NCBI RefSeq assembly: GCF_963675975.1
Contig: NZ_OY780939.1
Location: 2,232,001-2,296,000 of the forward strand
DNA: 64,000 bases
DNA from: Halarcobacter sp.
GTDB lineage: Bacteria > Campylobacterota > Campylobacteria > Campylobacterales > Arcobacteraceae
Direction of reading: 5' to 3'
The notes below the pieces were generated by a model. It saw only the letters and a program-made list of their open reading frames with translations. It did not search any database and was not told the DNA's origin. Shown here in pieces: positions 55,148 through 60,531 of the stretch. The translations under genes and the position numbers were made by a program. How positions within the stretch are numbered: the stretch's first letter is position 1; every line of letters begins with the position of its first letter.

Positions 55148-55435
55148 TTATTTAACAATAAAATCAGCAATAGCTTGAATATCAGCGTCAGATAATCCTG
55201 CTGCTTGAGGTTTCATAATTGCTTTCATTGGTCCACCGTATGAACCATCTTTGTAACCTTTCATTGCTGCAACAAAATCAGCTTTTGTCATATCTTTTAT
55301 AATTTTAGATTTACCTAAAGCTACTTTTTCACCATTTGCACCATGACATTGTACACATTTTGTATATAGTTCAGTTGCACCTGCAAATGAGATAGAACAT
55401 GATACAATCGCCGCTGCCATTACTAATTTTTTCAT
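55148..55435 (-). CDS. Monohaem c-type cytochrome (c553-like)
   Basis: A 95-residue periplasmic electron carrier. Signal peptide at 1-20 (KKLVMAAAIVSCSISFAGA), haem attachment CVQCHG at about 28-33, and Met ligand in MKAIMKPQ (about 70). The small single-haem layout is that of cytochrome c553, which passes electrons to terminal oxidases. Closely related to the protein at 55592-55867. Maturation would need CcsBA. Confidence 0.92.
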   Translation of the reverse strand: MKKLVMAAAIVSCSISFAGATELYTKCVQCHGANGEKVALGKSKIIKDMTKADFVAAMKGYKDGSYGGPMKAIMKPQAAGLSDADIQAIADFIVK

Positions 55436-55591
55436 AGATTTCCTTTTTTTCTTTTTTTATTGAAATTATTTTAATATAACTTAACTAATATTTTTATTTA
55501 ATTTACAATTAATAGTTAAAAAAAATGAAAAATTTAAATAATTAAAGAAATCTTTTCAATTAGTAACATTTAATACATAAATAATAAATTA

Positions 55592-55867
55592 TTACTTACC
55601 TATTTGATTCGCTATAGCTTTTATATCTTCATCACTTAAATTATTAACCTGACCTTTCATCATACCTTTTAAAGCTCCTCCATAAGTACCATTTTTATAT
55701 CCATGTAATGATTCGATTATTTCTGCTTTTGTCATATCTTTAATAACTTTTGATTTGCCTAATGCAACTTTCTCTCCATTTGCCCCATGACATGCTACAC
55801 ATTTAGCATAAGGATTAGCAAAAGCAACAGAAGCTAAGATTGTTGTTAGAAAAATTACTCTTTTCAT
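55592..55867 (-). CDS. Monohaem c-type cytochrome, sister copy
   Basis: A 91-residue protein with signal peptide 1-17, haem motif CVACHG (about 23-28) and Met region GALKGMMKGQ. GANGEKVALGKSK and IKDMTKA are identical in both copies, while the C-terminal helices differ. The 156-bp AT-rich gap between the genes suggests separate promoters after a tandem duplication. Confidence 0.92.
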   Translation of the reverse strand: MKRVIFLTTILASVAFANPYAKCVACHGANGEKVALGKSKVIKDMTKAEIIESLHGYKNGTYGGALKGMMKGQVNNLSDEDIKAIANQIGK

Positions 55868-55956: not shown

Positions 55957-55986
55957 TTTATGTACAGTAAAAATACTGTACATAAA
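55957..55986 (-). terminator. Terminator after the mutase/ligase operon
   Basis: A perfect 13-bp stem TTTATGTACAGTA/TACTGTACATAAA with an AAAA loop, 2 bp beyond the ligase stop; the minus strand continues into T-rich sequence. This marks the end of the four-gene operon. Confidence 0.85.
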
Positions 55987-55988
55987 AA

Positions 55989-57566
55989 CTAATTTAAAGT
56001 ATCTAAAAGTTCAGCTTTTAAATCTTCTTTGTTGATTTTATTCCTATCACTAGGAACTAAAGGTAGAGATTTTTTATAAATAATCTTTGTTGGAATCATA
56101 TACGAAGCAAGGTGTTTTTTTAATTCAAAAGTGATCTCTTTAGGAGCTAATTCACTTCTTGAACTATATACCATCACAATCTCTTCTTCTATTTCAGCAT
56201 TTGGAATAGAGAATATTGCGCATTGTTCTATAGTTGGAAGATTTTTTCTTACAACAGATTCTATCTCAAGTGGACTAACTCTAAAACCTCTAGTTTTAAT
56301 CATATCATCACGTCTTGAAACAAAATAAAAATATCCCTCTTCATCTTTATATACATAATCACCAGTTGCAACAACTATCTCATCTCTTAATTGTCCCTCT
56401 AGGTTAATTACATCTTTTAGAATTTGTATAGATTTAAATCTTTGAGAAGTCTCTTCAGGAGCATTCCAGAAACCTTTGTAGATATATCCACCTCTATGGA
56501 TAAGCTCTCCAACTTCCCTTGGTTTACACTCTTTCCCCTCTTCATTAACCACATAAAGTTCTACTCCTGGAATTGCTTTTCCAATAGACTCTGGTCTAAT
56601 ATTTATTTGAGAAGGTTCTAAATATGTTGATCTAAAGGCTTCTGTTAAACCATGCATAGAATAAAATTCAACATTTTGAAAGTATTTCTTCACTTTTTGT
56701 ACCATTTTTAATGTTACATTACCACCTGAAGAAGTGATTGTTTTAATATTTGATAATAACTCAGGACTTGGAAGCCTGTGTTCATCTTCATCAAACATAG
56801 ATGTAATAGTTACAGGCATTAGTGCAACTACTGTAACTTCATCATTAATTAAATGATTGAAAAAATCTCCTGGTAAAATAAACCTATGTAAAGCTAAAGT
56901 TGCTCTTTTGTATAAAGAACAAAAAATTTGATTTAATCCATAATCTAAATTAAAAATCAATATCCCTGATAATACATCATCTTCTTCTAATTTTAGATAT
57001 TGAGAAACTACTCTTGCACTATCAATTAGATTTCTGTGTGATATAACAATACCTTTTGGGGTTCCTGTAAGTCCAAATGAATAAGTGATAACAGCATTAT
57101 CGTGACCATTTACCTCACATGTATAAGGTTTATTATAGTATTTAAATATCTCTTCAAAAGATGCAATATCTTTATGTGTAGTTTCATAAGAGATTATATG
57201 TCCATCAAAAGCAATCTCTTCAATAGATTCAAGTTTGATTCTATCAGTTATAATACATCTAATATCACAATCATTAATAATATACTCAACTTGTTCACTT
57301 TTAAGGAGTCTTGTAAGTGGTACAAGTACATAATTGGTAGATAAAATGGCAAGTATTGCTATAACTTGGTCAATACTTTTTTTAGAATAAATTCCAATTC
57401 TACTCCCTTTTGGAAGATCTAATTCATTTAGATAAAAGGCTACTTGATTTACCTTTGTAAAAAGCTCTTTATATGTAATACTCTTATCATCATGTTTAAT
57501 TGCAATCTTATCAGGATGTGATAAGTTTGCATCTTCTATAAGTGCTCTAATACAATTAATTGACAT
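55989..57566 (-). CDS. AMP-forming acyl/aminoacyl ligase with degenerate P-loop
   Basis: A 525-residue member of the adenylate-forming (ANL) family. The A3 P-loop reads YSFGLTGTPKGIVISH, where most have TSGTTG-x-PKG, so two of the small residues are replaced by Phe and Leu. A5 is MHGLTEA, A7 ATGDYVYKDEEGYFYFVSRRDDMIKTRGFRV, and the catalytic Lys is kept near the end in SDRNKINKEDL. It should activate a carboxylic acid as an acyl-AMP, for CoA or a carrier protein. Its ATG directly follows the GlmL stop, with AAAGGAG upstream. Last gene of the B12-mutase operon, so its substrate is probably the mutase product or a related amino acid. Confidence 0.88.
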   Translation of the reverse strand: MSINCIRALIEDANLSHPDKIAIKHDDKSITYKELFTKVNQVAFYLNELDLPKGSRIGIYSKKSIDQVIAILAILSTNYVLVPLTRLLKSEQVEYIINDCDIRCIITDRIKLESIEEIAFDGHIISYETTHKDIASFEEIFKYYNKPYTCEVNGHDNAVITYSFGLTGTPKGIVISHRNLIDSARVVSQYLKLEEDDVLSGILIFNLDYGLNQIFCSLYKRATLALHRFILPGDFFNHLINDEVTVVALMPVTITSMFDEDEHRLPSPELLSNIKTITSSGGNVTLKMVQKVKKYFQNVEFYSMHGLTEAFRSTYLEPSQINIRPESIGKAIPGVELYVVNEEGKECKPREVGELIHRGGYIYKGFWNAPEETSQRFKSIQILKDVINLEGQLRDEIVVATGDYVYKDEEGYFYFVSRRDDMIKTRGFRVSPLEIESVVRKNLPTIEQCAIFSIPNAEIEEEIVMVYSSRSELAPKEITFELKKHLASYMIPTKIIYKKSLPLVPSDRNKINKEDLKAELLDTLN

Positions 57567-58760
57567 CTACTCTCCTTTATTCATACCCAAAGTCCAGATA
57601 TCGTAATTTAAATCCATTACAACAGCTGGGTTATGGCCTGAGTTTAATATTTTTTTATAGAAGAATGAAACAATATCTTCTATCTCTTCTTTTTTTAATA
57701 CTTTTGTAATTCCACCTGTTAAAACAATAGAATTTAAAGATAAAAGTTTTAAATTTATATAAGCTTTTCTGAAACTAGAAACTTTACATAGTACTAAGAA
57801 TATCGCAAGTTGCATTAAAATTCTTGTTGCTTTTTCACTATTTTCATCAAAAATATTTTCAGTTACTTTTAAATGTGCCAAAAGCTCATATACAAATTCA
57901 TTGTTTTTTGCTGCAAAAATTAAAGATTCTTTTGATTTATAAACACCAAGTTTTTTAAATACTAATCTATCATATTCATTCTCAGTTACCATATTTTCAT
58001 CAACTAAATCTTTTGAATAATGAATATCTGTTGTAGCTCCACCAATATCTATTAAAATAAATGGATTTGCAACAGCAAATTTAGTACCAACAATTGGAAG
58101 AGTTTTATTTACAATATATGGAGTAGAGTAGATTTGGTTTGAAGTGATTTCATAAAGGTGTTTAATATCCTCTTTACCCATAATATCAGCTTGATAAAGG
58201 TTTGTTAAATACTCTTTTAAATGCTCCTCTTCAACATGAAGTCTATCAGTTATAATATTTGGTAAAACAACTAGATTCTCAATATTTTCCTGTAAATAAG
58301 AACTATCTTGTTTACTTCCAACATAAACTATATTTGAGTAATTTATTTTTTCTAAATAAGAAAAAAGTTTTTCATCAAATATATTTGAGACTGAATCAAT
58401 TCCACCAACAAGGATTACAACATCAATCATATCACTAGGAACAGATGTGTTTTCAATATCTTTGTATAAAACTGTATCTATAATATTAATACCAGAGTTA
58501 AAAGCAATATTTGTAGCAAACTTTAATGAAAAAGAGTTTGTAATTCCTATAATTAAAGTACTTAATCCACCATTAGCAGATGAACAGATAAAAACATCAT
58601 CTTTTTTATAATTATGGATTGTATCACCACATTTGTAAGTTAAATCATCAAAAATATCTTTATTGAAATCTCTAAAATGTTGTTCCACTTTTTGAGGAGT
58701 ACACACTTTAAAATATGTACTTCCCACATCTATTAATAGTTTTTCATTTATTTCACTCAT
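57567..58760 (-). CDS. glmL: GlmL/MutL-type reactivating protein for B12 mutase
   Basis: A 397-residue ASKHA-fold ATPase. The N-terminal phosphate loop LLIDVGSTYFKV (about 8-19) and second phosphate motif ILIDIGGATTDIHY (about 238-251) match GlmL, the protein encoded with glutamate mutase and thought to exchange damaged cobalamin. VVILVGGIDS and a late VLTGGITKV complete the fold. It is shorter than clostridial GlmL, the difference lying mainly in the central part. It overlaps the mutase large-subunit gene by 4 bp (ATGA). Confidence 0.87.
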   Translation of the reverse strand: MSEINEKLLIDVGSTYFKVCTPQKVEQHFRDFNKDIFDDLTYKCGDTIHNYKKDDVFICSSANGGLSTLIIGITNSFSLKFATNIAFNSGINIIDTVLYKDIENTSVPSDMIDVVILVGGIDSVSNIFDEKLFSYLEKINYSNIVYVGSKQDSSYLQENIENLVVLPNIITDRLHVEEEHLKEYLTNLYQADIMGKEDIKHLYEITSNQIYSTPYIVNKTLPIVGTKFAVANPFILIDIGGATTDIHYSKDLVDENMVTENEYDRLVFKKLGVYKSKESLIFAAKNNEFVYELLAHLKVTENIFDENSEKATRILMQLAIFLVLCKVSSFRKAYINLKLLSLNSIVLTGGITKVLKKEEIEDIVSFFYKKILNSGHNPAVVMDLNYDIWTLGMNKGE

Positions 58761-60121
58761 TGCATAATCCCTATATCATGGATAATATCATTAACAATTG
58801 ATGTTGTATCTTTTGTTAAGTCACATTTAGATCTTTCATATTCAAAACATTTGTCAGGAATAGGAACTTTTCCTCTATCTATGATTCTAATATTTTTATT
58901 TTTATCTCTAATTGTAATCATATTGTTGTGGTTAATAATATGTGGAGAGAAAGGAACATCTATAATTCCATTTTTAATAGAGTTAAATACTTTTCTCCAT
59001 AATGTATCTGCATTATCATTGAATACAGCTTCCATTATTGCCATAACTTCTGCTGTTAATATCTCTTCTTCCTCTTCATCAACAATTTTAGGTAAACCAC
59101 TTAAAATTCTAAGTAGATATTGAGTATTTGCAACTGTTTCAGCATTTGCTTCTTTTGTTGGAATACCTGATGCTTCTTGTTTAGTTTTTGTAATAATCTT
59201 ATCAGCTCCAACCATTGAAGCAATAGCTGTACTCATACTAATTAGTTGAGTAGCATAGTTTTGATCTTCAGGAAATGCTCCCATCCATTGGTGATATACT
59301 AAATGGATTTGCGCATCACCACAATCAATCTCGTTTGCATAATATTTTGCAAGTTTTCTAATAACATTACCCATTACAATATCTTGATTCACTGAACCAC
59401 TTTGAGAAAATGATACAGAGAAAGATTTAACTCCCTCTTCAAGTGATAATAACATCTCTAAAAGTTGTATTACAATAGTAATGCATGGTGGAACTAATGT
59501 TGCTGTTAAAGGACCAAAAGATTCTCTGTTTATTGGTTCATTTAGTTTTGAATAGTTTGCACATACTCTTTCTACATATTTCCAGTATAAAAATGCTTTA
59601 TCTAATGGAAAGTTTTTAGAGTAGGGTAAAAGGTAAGTGATTGGACCACCTTCTATTTCAAAAATTCCCGAAGCAATTGCTGTTTCAATTAAAAGTCTAG
59701 CATCAGGAGTTCCATGTCTTAAAGATATAGGTTTATTAAAATGAGTCATCATTTTTCTTGTTGTTCTATACCCATGATTAATCAATGGATAACCATTTAG
59801 CATATCAACTTCACTCTCTTCACTAAGTCTTAACATCTTTTCTGAAGTTGCATAATCATTAAGTCTTGTATTTGAGTCAATTGTACATGGTAATACGTCT
59901 ACGTTTGCTTTATCAAAAAATTCATAAAGTGCAAACATTTTATTATATGTTGGAAACCCACCCCTAGGTTGTACAAGCATTTTGTTTTTTGTTTTAAAAT
60001 TATGAGAGATAAAAAGATCTTTTGAAGCGTTTTTAACAAACTCTTCAACTTCTGCAAAATCAAAATTATCTACATATTCATTACCTAATATGATTTTTCT
60101 TTCTTCTTGTAATAAACTCAT
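58757..60121 (-). CDS. glmE: Glutamate mutase epsilon (large, catalytic) subunit homologue
   Basis: A 454-residue TIM-barrel subunit of a B12-dependent carbon-skeleton mutase. It matches the methylaspartate mutase family: QPRGGFPTYNKMFALYEFF, IDSNTRLNDY, NGYPLINHGYRTTRKM, SLRHGTPDARLLIETAIASG, and IEGGPITYLLPYSK, where the classical enzyme has EGGGISY. The glutamate-binding Arg residues appear conserved, so an acidic amino acid is the likely substrate. It overlaps its neighbours by 4 bp on both sides. The next enzyme of glutamate fermentation, methylaspartate ammonia-lyase, is absent. Confidence 0.9.
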   Translation of the reverse strand: MSLLQEERKIILGNEYVDNFDFAEVEEFVKNASKDLFISHNFKTKNKMLVQPRGGFPTYNKMFALYEFFDKANVDVLPCTIDSNTRLNDYATSEKMLRLSEESEVDMLNGYPLINHGYRTTRKMMTHFNKPISLRHGTPDARLLIETAIASGIFEIEGGPITYLLPYSKNFPLDKAFLYWKYVERVCANYSKLNEPINRESFGPLTATLVPPCITIVIQLLEMLLSLEEGVKSFSVSFSQSGSVNQDIVMGNVIRKLAKYYANEIDCGDAQIHLVYHQWMGAFPEDQNYATQLISMSTAIASMVGADKIITKTKQEASGIPTKEANAETVANTQYLLRILSGLPKIVDEEEEEILTAEVMAIMEAVFNDNADTLWRKVFNSIKNGIIDVPFSPHIINHNNMITIRDKNKNIRIIDRGKVPIPDKCFEYERSKCDLTKDTTSIVNDIIHDIGIMQ

Positions 60122-60531
60122 TTTTTATTCTCTTTCAGAAATTTTTCTAATTCATCTAGTCCAGTATTTAAATCAACTTGATGGAATACTAAATCAAAAC
60201 CATAATTTTTAAATCTTGGAACAATATCGTCAGCATTCCCTGTACCAACAACTAGATTCCCACCAATCATAAATACTACATTGTCTAAAAGAGAACCATA
60301 TTTAGCTTTAAGAACTTTTACTTCTCTACACCAACCCTCTGCCTCACCATTTAAAGATGATATTAATAATATATCTGCATTTGTTTCAATCACTGCATCA
60401 ACAAACTCTTCAAGATATGTATTAACTCCTAAGTTAAATACCTCAAAGCCTCTAGCTTGTAGTGATAGTTCAATTAGTCTATTAGCAACGACATGGATAT
60501 CGTTACCTACTACTCCTGTTACTACTTTCAT
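60118..60531 (-). CDS. mamA: Glutamate mutase sigma (B12-binding) subunit homologue
   Basis: A 137-residue cobalamin-binding protein, normal length for the family. The Co-ligating motif is VVGNDIHVVANRL (about 7-19): D-x-H is intact, but the Gly of DxHxxG is Ala. SSLNGE (about 68) and MIGGNLVVG (about 95-103) match the nucleotide-tail-binding loops. It forms the active enzyme with the epsilon subunit. First gene of the operon; only 74 bp separate it from the kinase gene upstream, too little for a cobalamin riboswitch. The gene symbol for this subunit varies between sources. Confidence 0.9.
   Translation of the reverse strand: MKVVTGVVGNDIHVVANRLIELSLQARGFEVFNLGVNTYLEEFVDAVIETNADILLISSLNGEAEGWCREVKVLKAKYGSLLDNVVFMIGGNLVVGTGNADDIVPRFKNYGFDLVFHQVDLNTGLDELEKFLKENKK

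Follow-up and report, generated by a model that had tools for sequence, protein, structure and literature searches.

A conserved operon for a glutamate mutase-like enzyme and a ligase in Halarcobacter sp. with an RraA-like partner gene: a candidate module for forming and activating 3-methylaspartate

Gene content of the operon

A stretch of 64,000 nucleotides from Halarcobacter sp. (assembly GCF_963675975.1, contig NZ_OY780939.1; G000:C1:2232001-2296000 in our numbering), referred to here as the window, was analysed with respect to an operon of four genes on its minus strand that combines a glutamate mutase-like enzyme with an AMP-forming ligase. The genome (G000) has a size of 3.27 Mb and consists of a single contig. 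In order of transcription, the operon encodes a B12-binding small (sigma) subunit of the MutS/GlmS type (137 aa, 60118..60531), an epsilon subunit of the MutE/GlmE type (454 aa, 58757..60121), an ASKHA ATPase of the GlmL/MutL type (397 aa, 57567..58760) and a ligase of the ANL family whose beta-amino-acid pocket is of the VinN type (525 aa, 55989..57566). The genes for MutS and MutE overlap by 4 bp, as do those for MutE and GlmL, and the GlmL and ligase genes abut. Open reading frames (ORFs), strand and junctions agree with the original prediction made from the letters of the window, and the four families it had named were borne out by Pfam and NCBIfam profiles, with a divergent GlmL. The operon is confirmed as real, and its four genes are the core of a larger module. 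The "strong terminator" that had been placed behind the ligase gene was overstated. This possible weak terminator (55957..55986, minus strand) is a perfect 13-bp inverted repeat with a T-rich tail, but its stem contains only three G-C pairs, its T tail is broken by an A, and the 64-kb window has two terminator-like sites compared to 1.2 (sd 1.2) in shuffled sequences.

MutS scored 48.3 bits against the B12-binding profile PF02310 (cut-off 32.1) and 158 bits against the methylaspartate mutase S profile NF002612 (cut-off 110), and remained under the cut-off of TIGR01501 (98.9 versus 135.8 bits). It has a DxHxxA motif instead of the DxHxxG of solved small subunits, while S-x-L and GG are retained. 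The Asp, His and Ala of this motif were constant in all 116 rows of an alignment that comprised the cluster's 117 members except one omitted by length. MutE was above the cut-off of PF06368 with 391 bits and slightly under that of TIGR01503 (375.5 versus 390.1 bits). Its closest named relatives carry the labels Arcobacter and Campylobacterales. MutE loci were collected from the window, from 40 of the 56 other MutE-positive genomes of the class Campylobacteria (stretches of about 20 kb, or up to the contig end) and from the best 80 of 221 named loci. The resulting 121 loci hold 114 distinct MutE sequences, and some named records duplicate genomes of the class search. Eight MutE residues, namely R53, R86, R135, E157, Y163, Y167, K312 and E316, were invariant in all 121 loci. 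They align (phmmer) to R66, R100, R149, E171, Y177, Y181, K326 and E330 of C. cochlearium GlmE, which we take to be substrate-site residues; nothing relevant to them was found in the open-licence literature of PubMed Central (PMC). Judged from the protein families, MutS-MutE likely makes 3-methylaspartate from glutamate.

The GlmL-like protein scored 94.6 bits against PF13941 (MutL, cut-off 27) and was far under the cut-off of TIGR01319. Given a score of 74.6 bits against the GlmL profile NF040745, with its cut-off of 475, it is divergent and, with 397 aa, short. Foldseek neighbours of its AlphaFold2 model were mostly actin-like ATPases with low TM-scores, and its identity to an Ensifer "glutamate mutase L" was 22% across 199 aa. 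It is probably a B12-mutase reactivase.

The cassette has subunits and active-site residues in common with the GlmS/GlmE/GlmL system of the C. cochlearium type. It differs from this system, which belongs to methylaspartate fermentation, in its DxHxxA motif, its short and divergent GlmL and the lack of an ammonia-lyase match in the genome. Methylaspartate ammonia-lyase (PF07476) gave no match in G000, in agreement with the absence noted in the original prediction. Five of 16 MutE-positive genomes gave six partial matches; these covered 78-96 of 249 positions, and four exceeded the cut-off. The profile also matched in 11 of 14 control genomes, and the partial matches are read as other enolase-type enzymes.

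Compared to plasmid-borne matches, the window's MutE was 32-39% identical to 13 non-actinobacterial and 25-30% identical to 17 actinobacterial proteins. There were nine pattern matches on viral contigs, with no MutE relative among them. On a Methylobacter plasmid (L168:2847-8207), genes for asparagine synthetase A, a B12-binding protein, two hypothetical proteins and an EamA transporter lie on the same strand, and one of the hypothetical proteins is a MutE-like match of 32% identity.

Distribution of the cassette and its RraA-like partner gene

MutE (PF06368) occurred in 57 of 397 genomes of the class Campylobacteria and in 20 of 68 genera. The four genes kept the order MutS-MutE-GlmL-ligase on a single strand in 108 of the 121 loci, from Campylobacterota, Gammaproteobacteria and others, and the arrangement is therefore more than chance. 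The ligase was present in 113 loci. According to the ORF calls, the remaining 13 loci are without one or more steps, with contig ends among them (e.g. L087 and L135). These 13 also include G234 (L060) and G393 (L071), which have extra genes between MutE and GlmL, and G356 (L051). An AspC/TyrB-type aminotransferase gene was found in 32 of the 121 loci, none of them labelled Campylobacterota. Among the 108 intact cassettes, 23 have it as the third or fourth gene upstream of MutE. Three of the aminotransferase genes were typed as PRK09257 over the cut-off. Six genomes with such a locus were searched. Each had at least two copies over the cut-off, of which one in G401 is an incomplete ORF, and an additional RraA was present in five.

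The original prediction had missed a fifth gene, which encodes an RraA-like protein and usually lies divergently next to the cassette. Of the 108 intact cassettes, 63 have it as their direct divergent neighbour and another 11 are separated from it by one ORF; neither holds for 34, including the window. RraA-like proteins (PF03737) were found in 72 of the 397 genomes, namely in all 57 with MutE and in 15 of the 340 without it (Fisher p = 2e-55, which is not to be taken literally as the genomes are related). In genus g21, the seven MutE-positive genomes are exactly the ones with RraA. A functional link between RraA and the module is hard to dismiss on these counts. Among the exceptions, G207 carries an RraA with 88% identity to that of locus L037, together with MutS and then a 65-residue ligase tail; no MutE or GlmL match was found in this stretch (L157:7266-8473), which is a cassette remnant. 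The RraA relatives of G261 and G297 (47-50%) have other surroundings, and those of G345 and G348 are relatives of 27-30%.

In a tree of 62 RraA rows, for which about one in three named loci was retained, the copy of the window's genome grouped with cassette-linked RraAs of neighbouring Arcobacteraceae. The gammaproteobacterial cassette copies of both MutE and RraA nest within those of Campylobacterota in trees that were midpoint-rooted and have some weak supports, the only other gammaproteobacterial RraA included being the one of E. coli. This parallel nesting fits a joint transfer in which RraA moved with the cassette.

The cassette RraA belongs to PF03737, the RraA/HMG-CHA aldolase family. 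R97-D98 was retained in all 89 rows of its alignment (95 cluster members, six omitted by length), and the genome's second RraA-like protein (L153) also has Arg-Asp. This differs from E. coli RraA, which has Arg-Gln at this site. The regulation of RNase E by RraA is disfavoured as a function, since no match to RNase E/G (PF10150) was found in G000, the only genome tested. Homologues of RraA with the metal motif are described in part of PMC5065237 as likely class II pyruvate aldolases that also decarboxylate oxaloacetate.

At locus L092 (G401, Colwellia), the cassette-side RraA is in separate pieces, due to either a sequencing error or decay. In L155:6846-12206, the neighbours of RraA are a ChaC-like gene, the gene of a large membrane protein and that of the ovothiol synthase OvoA, with profile typing of the row in this locus only; similar rows were seen in the Arcobacteraceae loci L037, L043, L046, L154, L159 and L160. 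OvoA occurred in 52 of the 57 MutE-positive and 67 of the 340 MutE-negative genomes. As OvoA is also frequent in cassette-free members of these genera (e.g. g21), the ovothiol link is only a lead.

Family and substrate pocket of the ligase

The ligase matched the AMP-binding profile PF00501 with 212 bits. Its best NCBIfam match was TIGR03098, the exosortase-A-associated ligase, with 443 bits and under the cut-off of 592.35. The structural model (pLDDT, a per-residue confidence score, of 80) is that of an ANL enzyme, and its Foldseek neighbours were general ANL enzymes. For residues 200-359, the top match in the PDB was VinN (3wv4/3wvn), although weak with an E-value of 3e-6. Passages of PMC11253843 and PMC11284099 give D230, F231, S299, K330 and R331 as pocket residues of VinN and report its specificity for 3-methylaspartate. 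Both proteins align without gaps at three pocket stretches (DYGL/DFGL, TSSGG/TNSAA and TEAFRS/TECKRI), where D208, Y209, S280 and R312 of the ligase correspond to D230, F231, S299 and R331 of VinN (numbering after a chain offset of 16). The pocket residues D208, Y209, S280 and R312, together with S279, were invariant in all 112 rows of the ligase alignment, which covered the 113 cluster members except one omitted by length. The same applied to E309, D403, R418 and R429 of the ATP site, and K424 was found in 111 rows.

Four plasmid-borne relatives were compared, two of them VinN-like and two from TIGR03098. R312 is common to all four. Y209 is also present in the VinN-like proteins (DYGL) and not in the TIGR03098 proteins (DAGL), and S280 is replaced by Thr in all four, with Ser in VinN. 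The cassette ligase is closer to a TIGR03098 protein (33% identity) than to a VinN-like plasmid protein (25%) and has the stretch TEAFRSTYL in common with TIGR03098. It differs from this family by DYGL in place of DAGL, its diverged P-loop and A10 motifs, its score below the cut-off and its neighbour, which is a mutase and not a pyridoxal phosphate (PLP) decarboxylase with a carrier protein. At two loci of the family (L164:2871-7792 and L165:4899-8028), the ligase adjoins a PLP decarboxylase with a carrier protein near and no mutase, resembling the logic of VinN, VinO and VinL, perhaps with aspartate. Two Streptomycetaceae plasmid loci combine, in a single row, a ligase (DYGL, TEAKRI) with a type III PLP enzyme, a cobalamin-binding protein and a methylaspartate mutase; one of the two adjoins a polyketide synthase (PKS).

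Proposed route and alternatives

The combination of a mutase with a 3-methylaspartate ligase is known from vicenistatin biosynthesis, and the term "undescribed" that had been used for the pathway does not hold for its first two steps. The vicenistatin route consists of the mutase VinH/VinI, the ligase VinN, the acyl carrier protein (ACP) VinL and the decarboxylase VinO, and, like the cassette, joins a glutamate mutase to an ANL ligase with a D/aromatic/S/R pocket. In contrast to this route, the cassette is without an adjoining PKS, no dedicated ACP or VinO-like enzyme is evident in the window's genome, and the module instead includes a reactivase of the GlmL type as well as the RraA-like partner. 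What is new is the use of these steps without an adjoining assembly line and RraA as a constant partner.

In the proposed module, MutS-MutE would act as an adenosylcobalamin-dependent glutamate mutase that converts L-glutamate to (2S,3S)-3-methylaspartate, and the GlmL-type ATPase would keep it active. The ligase would read the product as a beta-amino acid in the manner of VinN, with Asp208 at the amino group and Ser280 and Arg312 on the opposite side, activate the beta-carboxyl group with ATP and transfer the unit to coenzyme A (CoA), ACP or a small-molecule acceptor. 3-Methylaspartate may also be transaminated to 3-methyloxaloacetate, for which the AspC/TyrB paralogue close by in many Gammaproteobacteria is a candidate. 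The RraA-like enzyme, with its class II pyruvate aldolase/oxaloacetate decarboxylase fold, would act on an oxaloacetate-type keto acid, most simply 3-methyloxaloacetate, plausibly as a step of the path or as clean-up of an oxaloacetate analogue. We lean towards such a five-gene module leading from glutamate via 3-methylaspartate to its beta-carboxyl-activated form, with RraA on the keto-acid step. Chances are about even for the wider proposal of an undescribed, horizontally spread module of free-living Campylobacterota and marine Gammaproteobacteria, which would make and activate 3-methylaspartate outside assembly lines, require the RraA-like enzyme, yield a new cofactor- or conjugate-like metabolite and give a metabolic role to a clade annotated as RNase E regulator. 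Numerous bacteria of marine habitats and sediments would then be expected to contain 3-methylaspartate as a regular metabolite. A B12-dependent mutase would be linked with an activating ligase in a setting other than antibiotic biosynthesis, and a metabolic role of RraA-like proteins could be tested in an organism whose genome gave no match to RNase E. Searches of open-licence PMC for the mutase together with Campylobacterota, Arcobacter or Colwellia, and for pairs among glutamate mutase, AMP-dependent synthetase and RraA, yielded no paper on the module.

Several findings weigh against this proposal, above all in the ligase. The P-loop YSFGLTGTPKG of the window's ligase and the cluster pattern YSFGx[TS]GxP[KNR]G are unlike those of ordinary adenylating enzymes. 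F164 is Phe in all 112 rows and Ser in the four plasmid relatives, and position 171 is K in 91, N in 11 and R in 10 rows. The A10 lysine K510 is present in only 60 of the 112 rows (otherwise Q 21, R 17, E 5, L 4 and others), with a lysine one to two positions off in many rows, whereas the plasmid relatives retain the usual GST (P-loop) and GK (A10) motifs. The ligase is only about 25% identical to VinN-like proteins, several adenylation domains of nonribosomal peptide synthetases (NRPS) outrank VinN in full-length searches, and VinN was not among the top 50 Foldseek matches of the model. R312 also occurs in TIGR03098 ligases without an adjoining mutase, so the pocket is no proof of 3-methylaspartate over aspartate. 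In a fragmented metagenome-assembled genome (G356, L051), the mutase, GlmL and RraA are present, but a search for the cassette-type ligase gave a best match of 27% and hence none of this type. The RraA-like gene of the window's genome (G000:C1:2530067-2530510) is unlinked to the operon at a distance of about 0.24 Mb, its co-occurrence with MutE is a family-level count for which five of the 15 exceptions were looked at, and position 101 of the cassette RraA is Q 65, N 9, T 8, I 3 and V 1 among 89 rows (three unlisted). Glu or Asp after R-D-x-x at this position, which we take to be part of the HMG/CHA aldolase motif, was not seen. A dedicated carrier protein is not evident in G000, where the single PP-binding match is probably the fatty-acid ACP, nor is a VinO-like decarboxylase. 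The two PF02784 matches, with ORFs of 415 and 602 aa, are judged from their size to be probably LysA- and SpeA-like. Neither these nor the PP-binding match lie near the operon.

With its odd P-loop and variable A10 lysine, the ligase is considered as VinN-like in substrate choice and is not filed as a member of the VinN family. That it activates the beta-carboxyl group of 3-methylaspartate is moderately likely from its pocket, with real doubts arising from both motifs. A mutase and ligase acting on 3-methylaspartate, as originally predicted, is backed by the invariant MutE residues and the VinN-type pocket, but the motif divergence had been overlooked. The suggested carrier-protein route is doubtful given the lone PP-binding match, and nothing points to surface modification. 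A role as polyketide or NRPS starter was rejected, as no spare carrier or VinO-like decarboxylase is evident in this genome; no PKS lies beside the operon, and no genome-wide search for PKS or NRPS was made.

A methylaspartate route to isoleucine is known from E. coli. Here, 3-methylaspartate could be converted to 3-methyloxaloacetate by an AspC-type enzyme and on to 2-oxobutyrate by the RraA-like enzyme, with the ligase on a side branch. This would account for the nearby AspC/TyrB gene in Gammaproteobacteria and for RraA, as fold relatives show oxaloacetate decarboxylase activity according to part of PMC5065237. It is nevertheless unlikely, since the ligase of 113 loci would be left without explanation and there is no visible need for an additional source of 2-oxobutyrate, in a comparison that included no search for citramalate synthase. 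A threonine-ammonia-lyase-like gene was present in all 32 genomes tested (16 with and 16 without MutE), with best matches of 311-363 bits, none of which reached the 411 bits set as cut-off for the E. coli-type model. An isoleucine shortage is therefore unsupported.

Alternatively, the ligase may no longer adenylate and instead assist or regulate the mutase, for example in cofactor handling, with a pocket that senses 3-methylaspartate or glutamate. The diverged P-loop and the variable A10 lysine next to a fully conserved substrate pocket would fit, as would the constant coupling to mutase and reactivase. However, the near-complete conservation of the five ATP-site residues and the many rows with a lysine close to K510 make this improbable.

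Less probable still is a ligase for aspartate or another amino acid, the activated unit not being 3-methylaspartate. TIGR03098 relatives with TEAFRSTYL adjoin a PLP decarboxylase and carrier without a mutase, and VinN accepts Asp with low efficiency according to part of PMC11284099. On the other hand, Y209 agrees with DYGL of the VinN-like plasmid proteins and differs from the two aligned TIGR03098 members, which have DAGL, and the ligase is coupled to the mutase in the operon. Ordinary methylaspartate fermentation of glutamate is very improbable: the mutase subunits are the same, and an Ensifer plasmid shows the catabolic order S-L-E-methylaspartate ammonia-lyase-CoA transferase-CoA ester lyase, but PF07476 is without a match in the window's genome and only partially matched elsewhere, and the window's MutE is only 32-39% identical to the 13 non-actinobacterial plasmid proteins.

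Downstream of the ligase gene, the window contains two small tandem cytochrome c genes (55148-55867). Cytochrome c genes also come after the cassette in many Arcobacteraceae loci.

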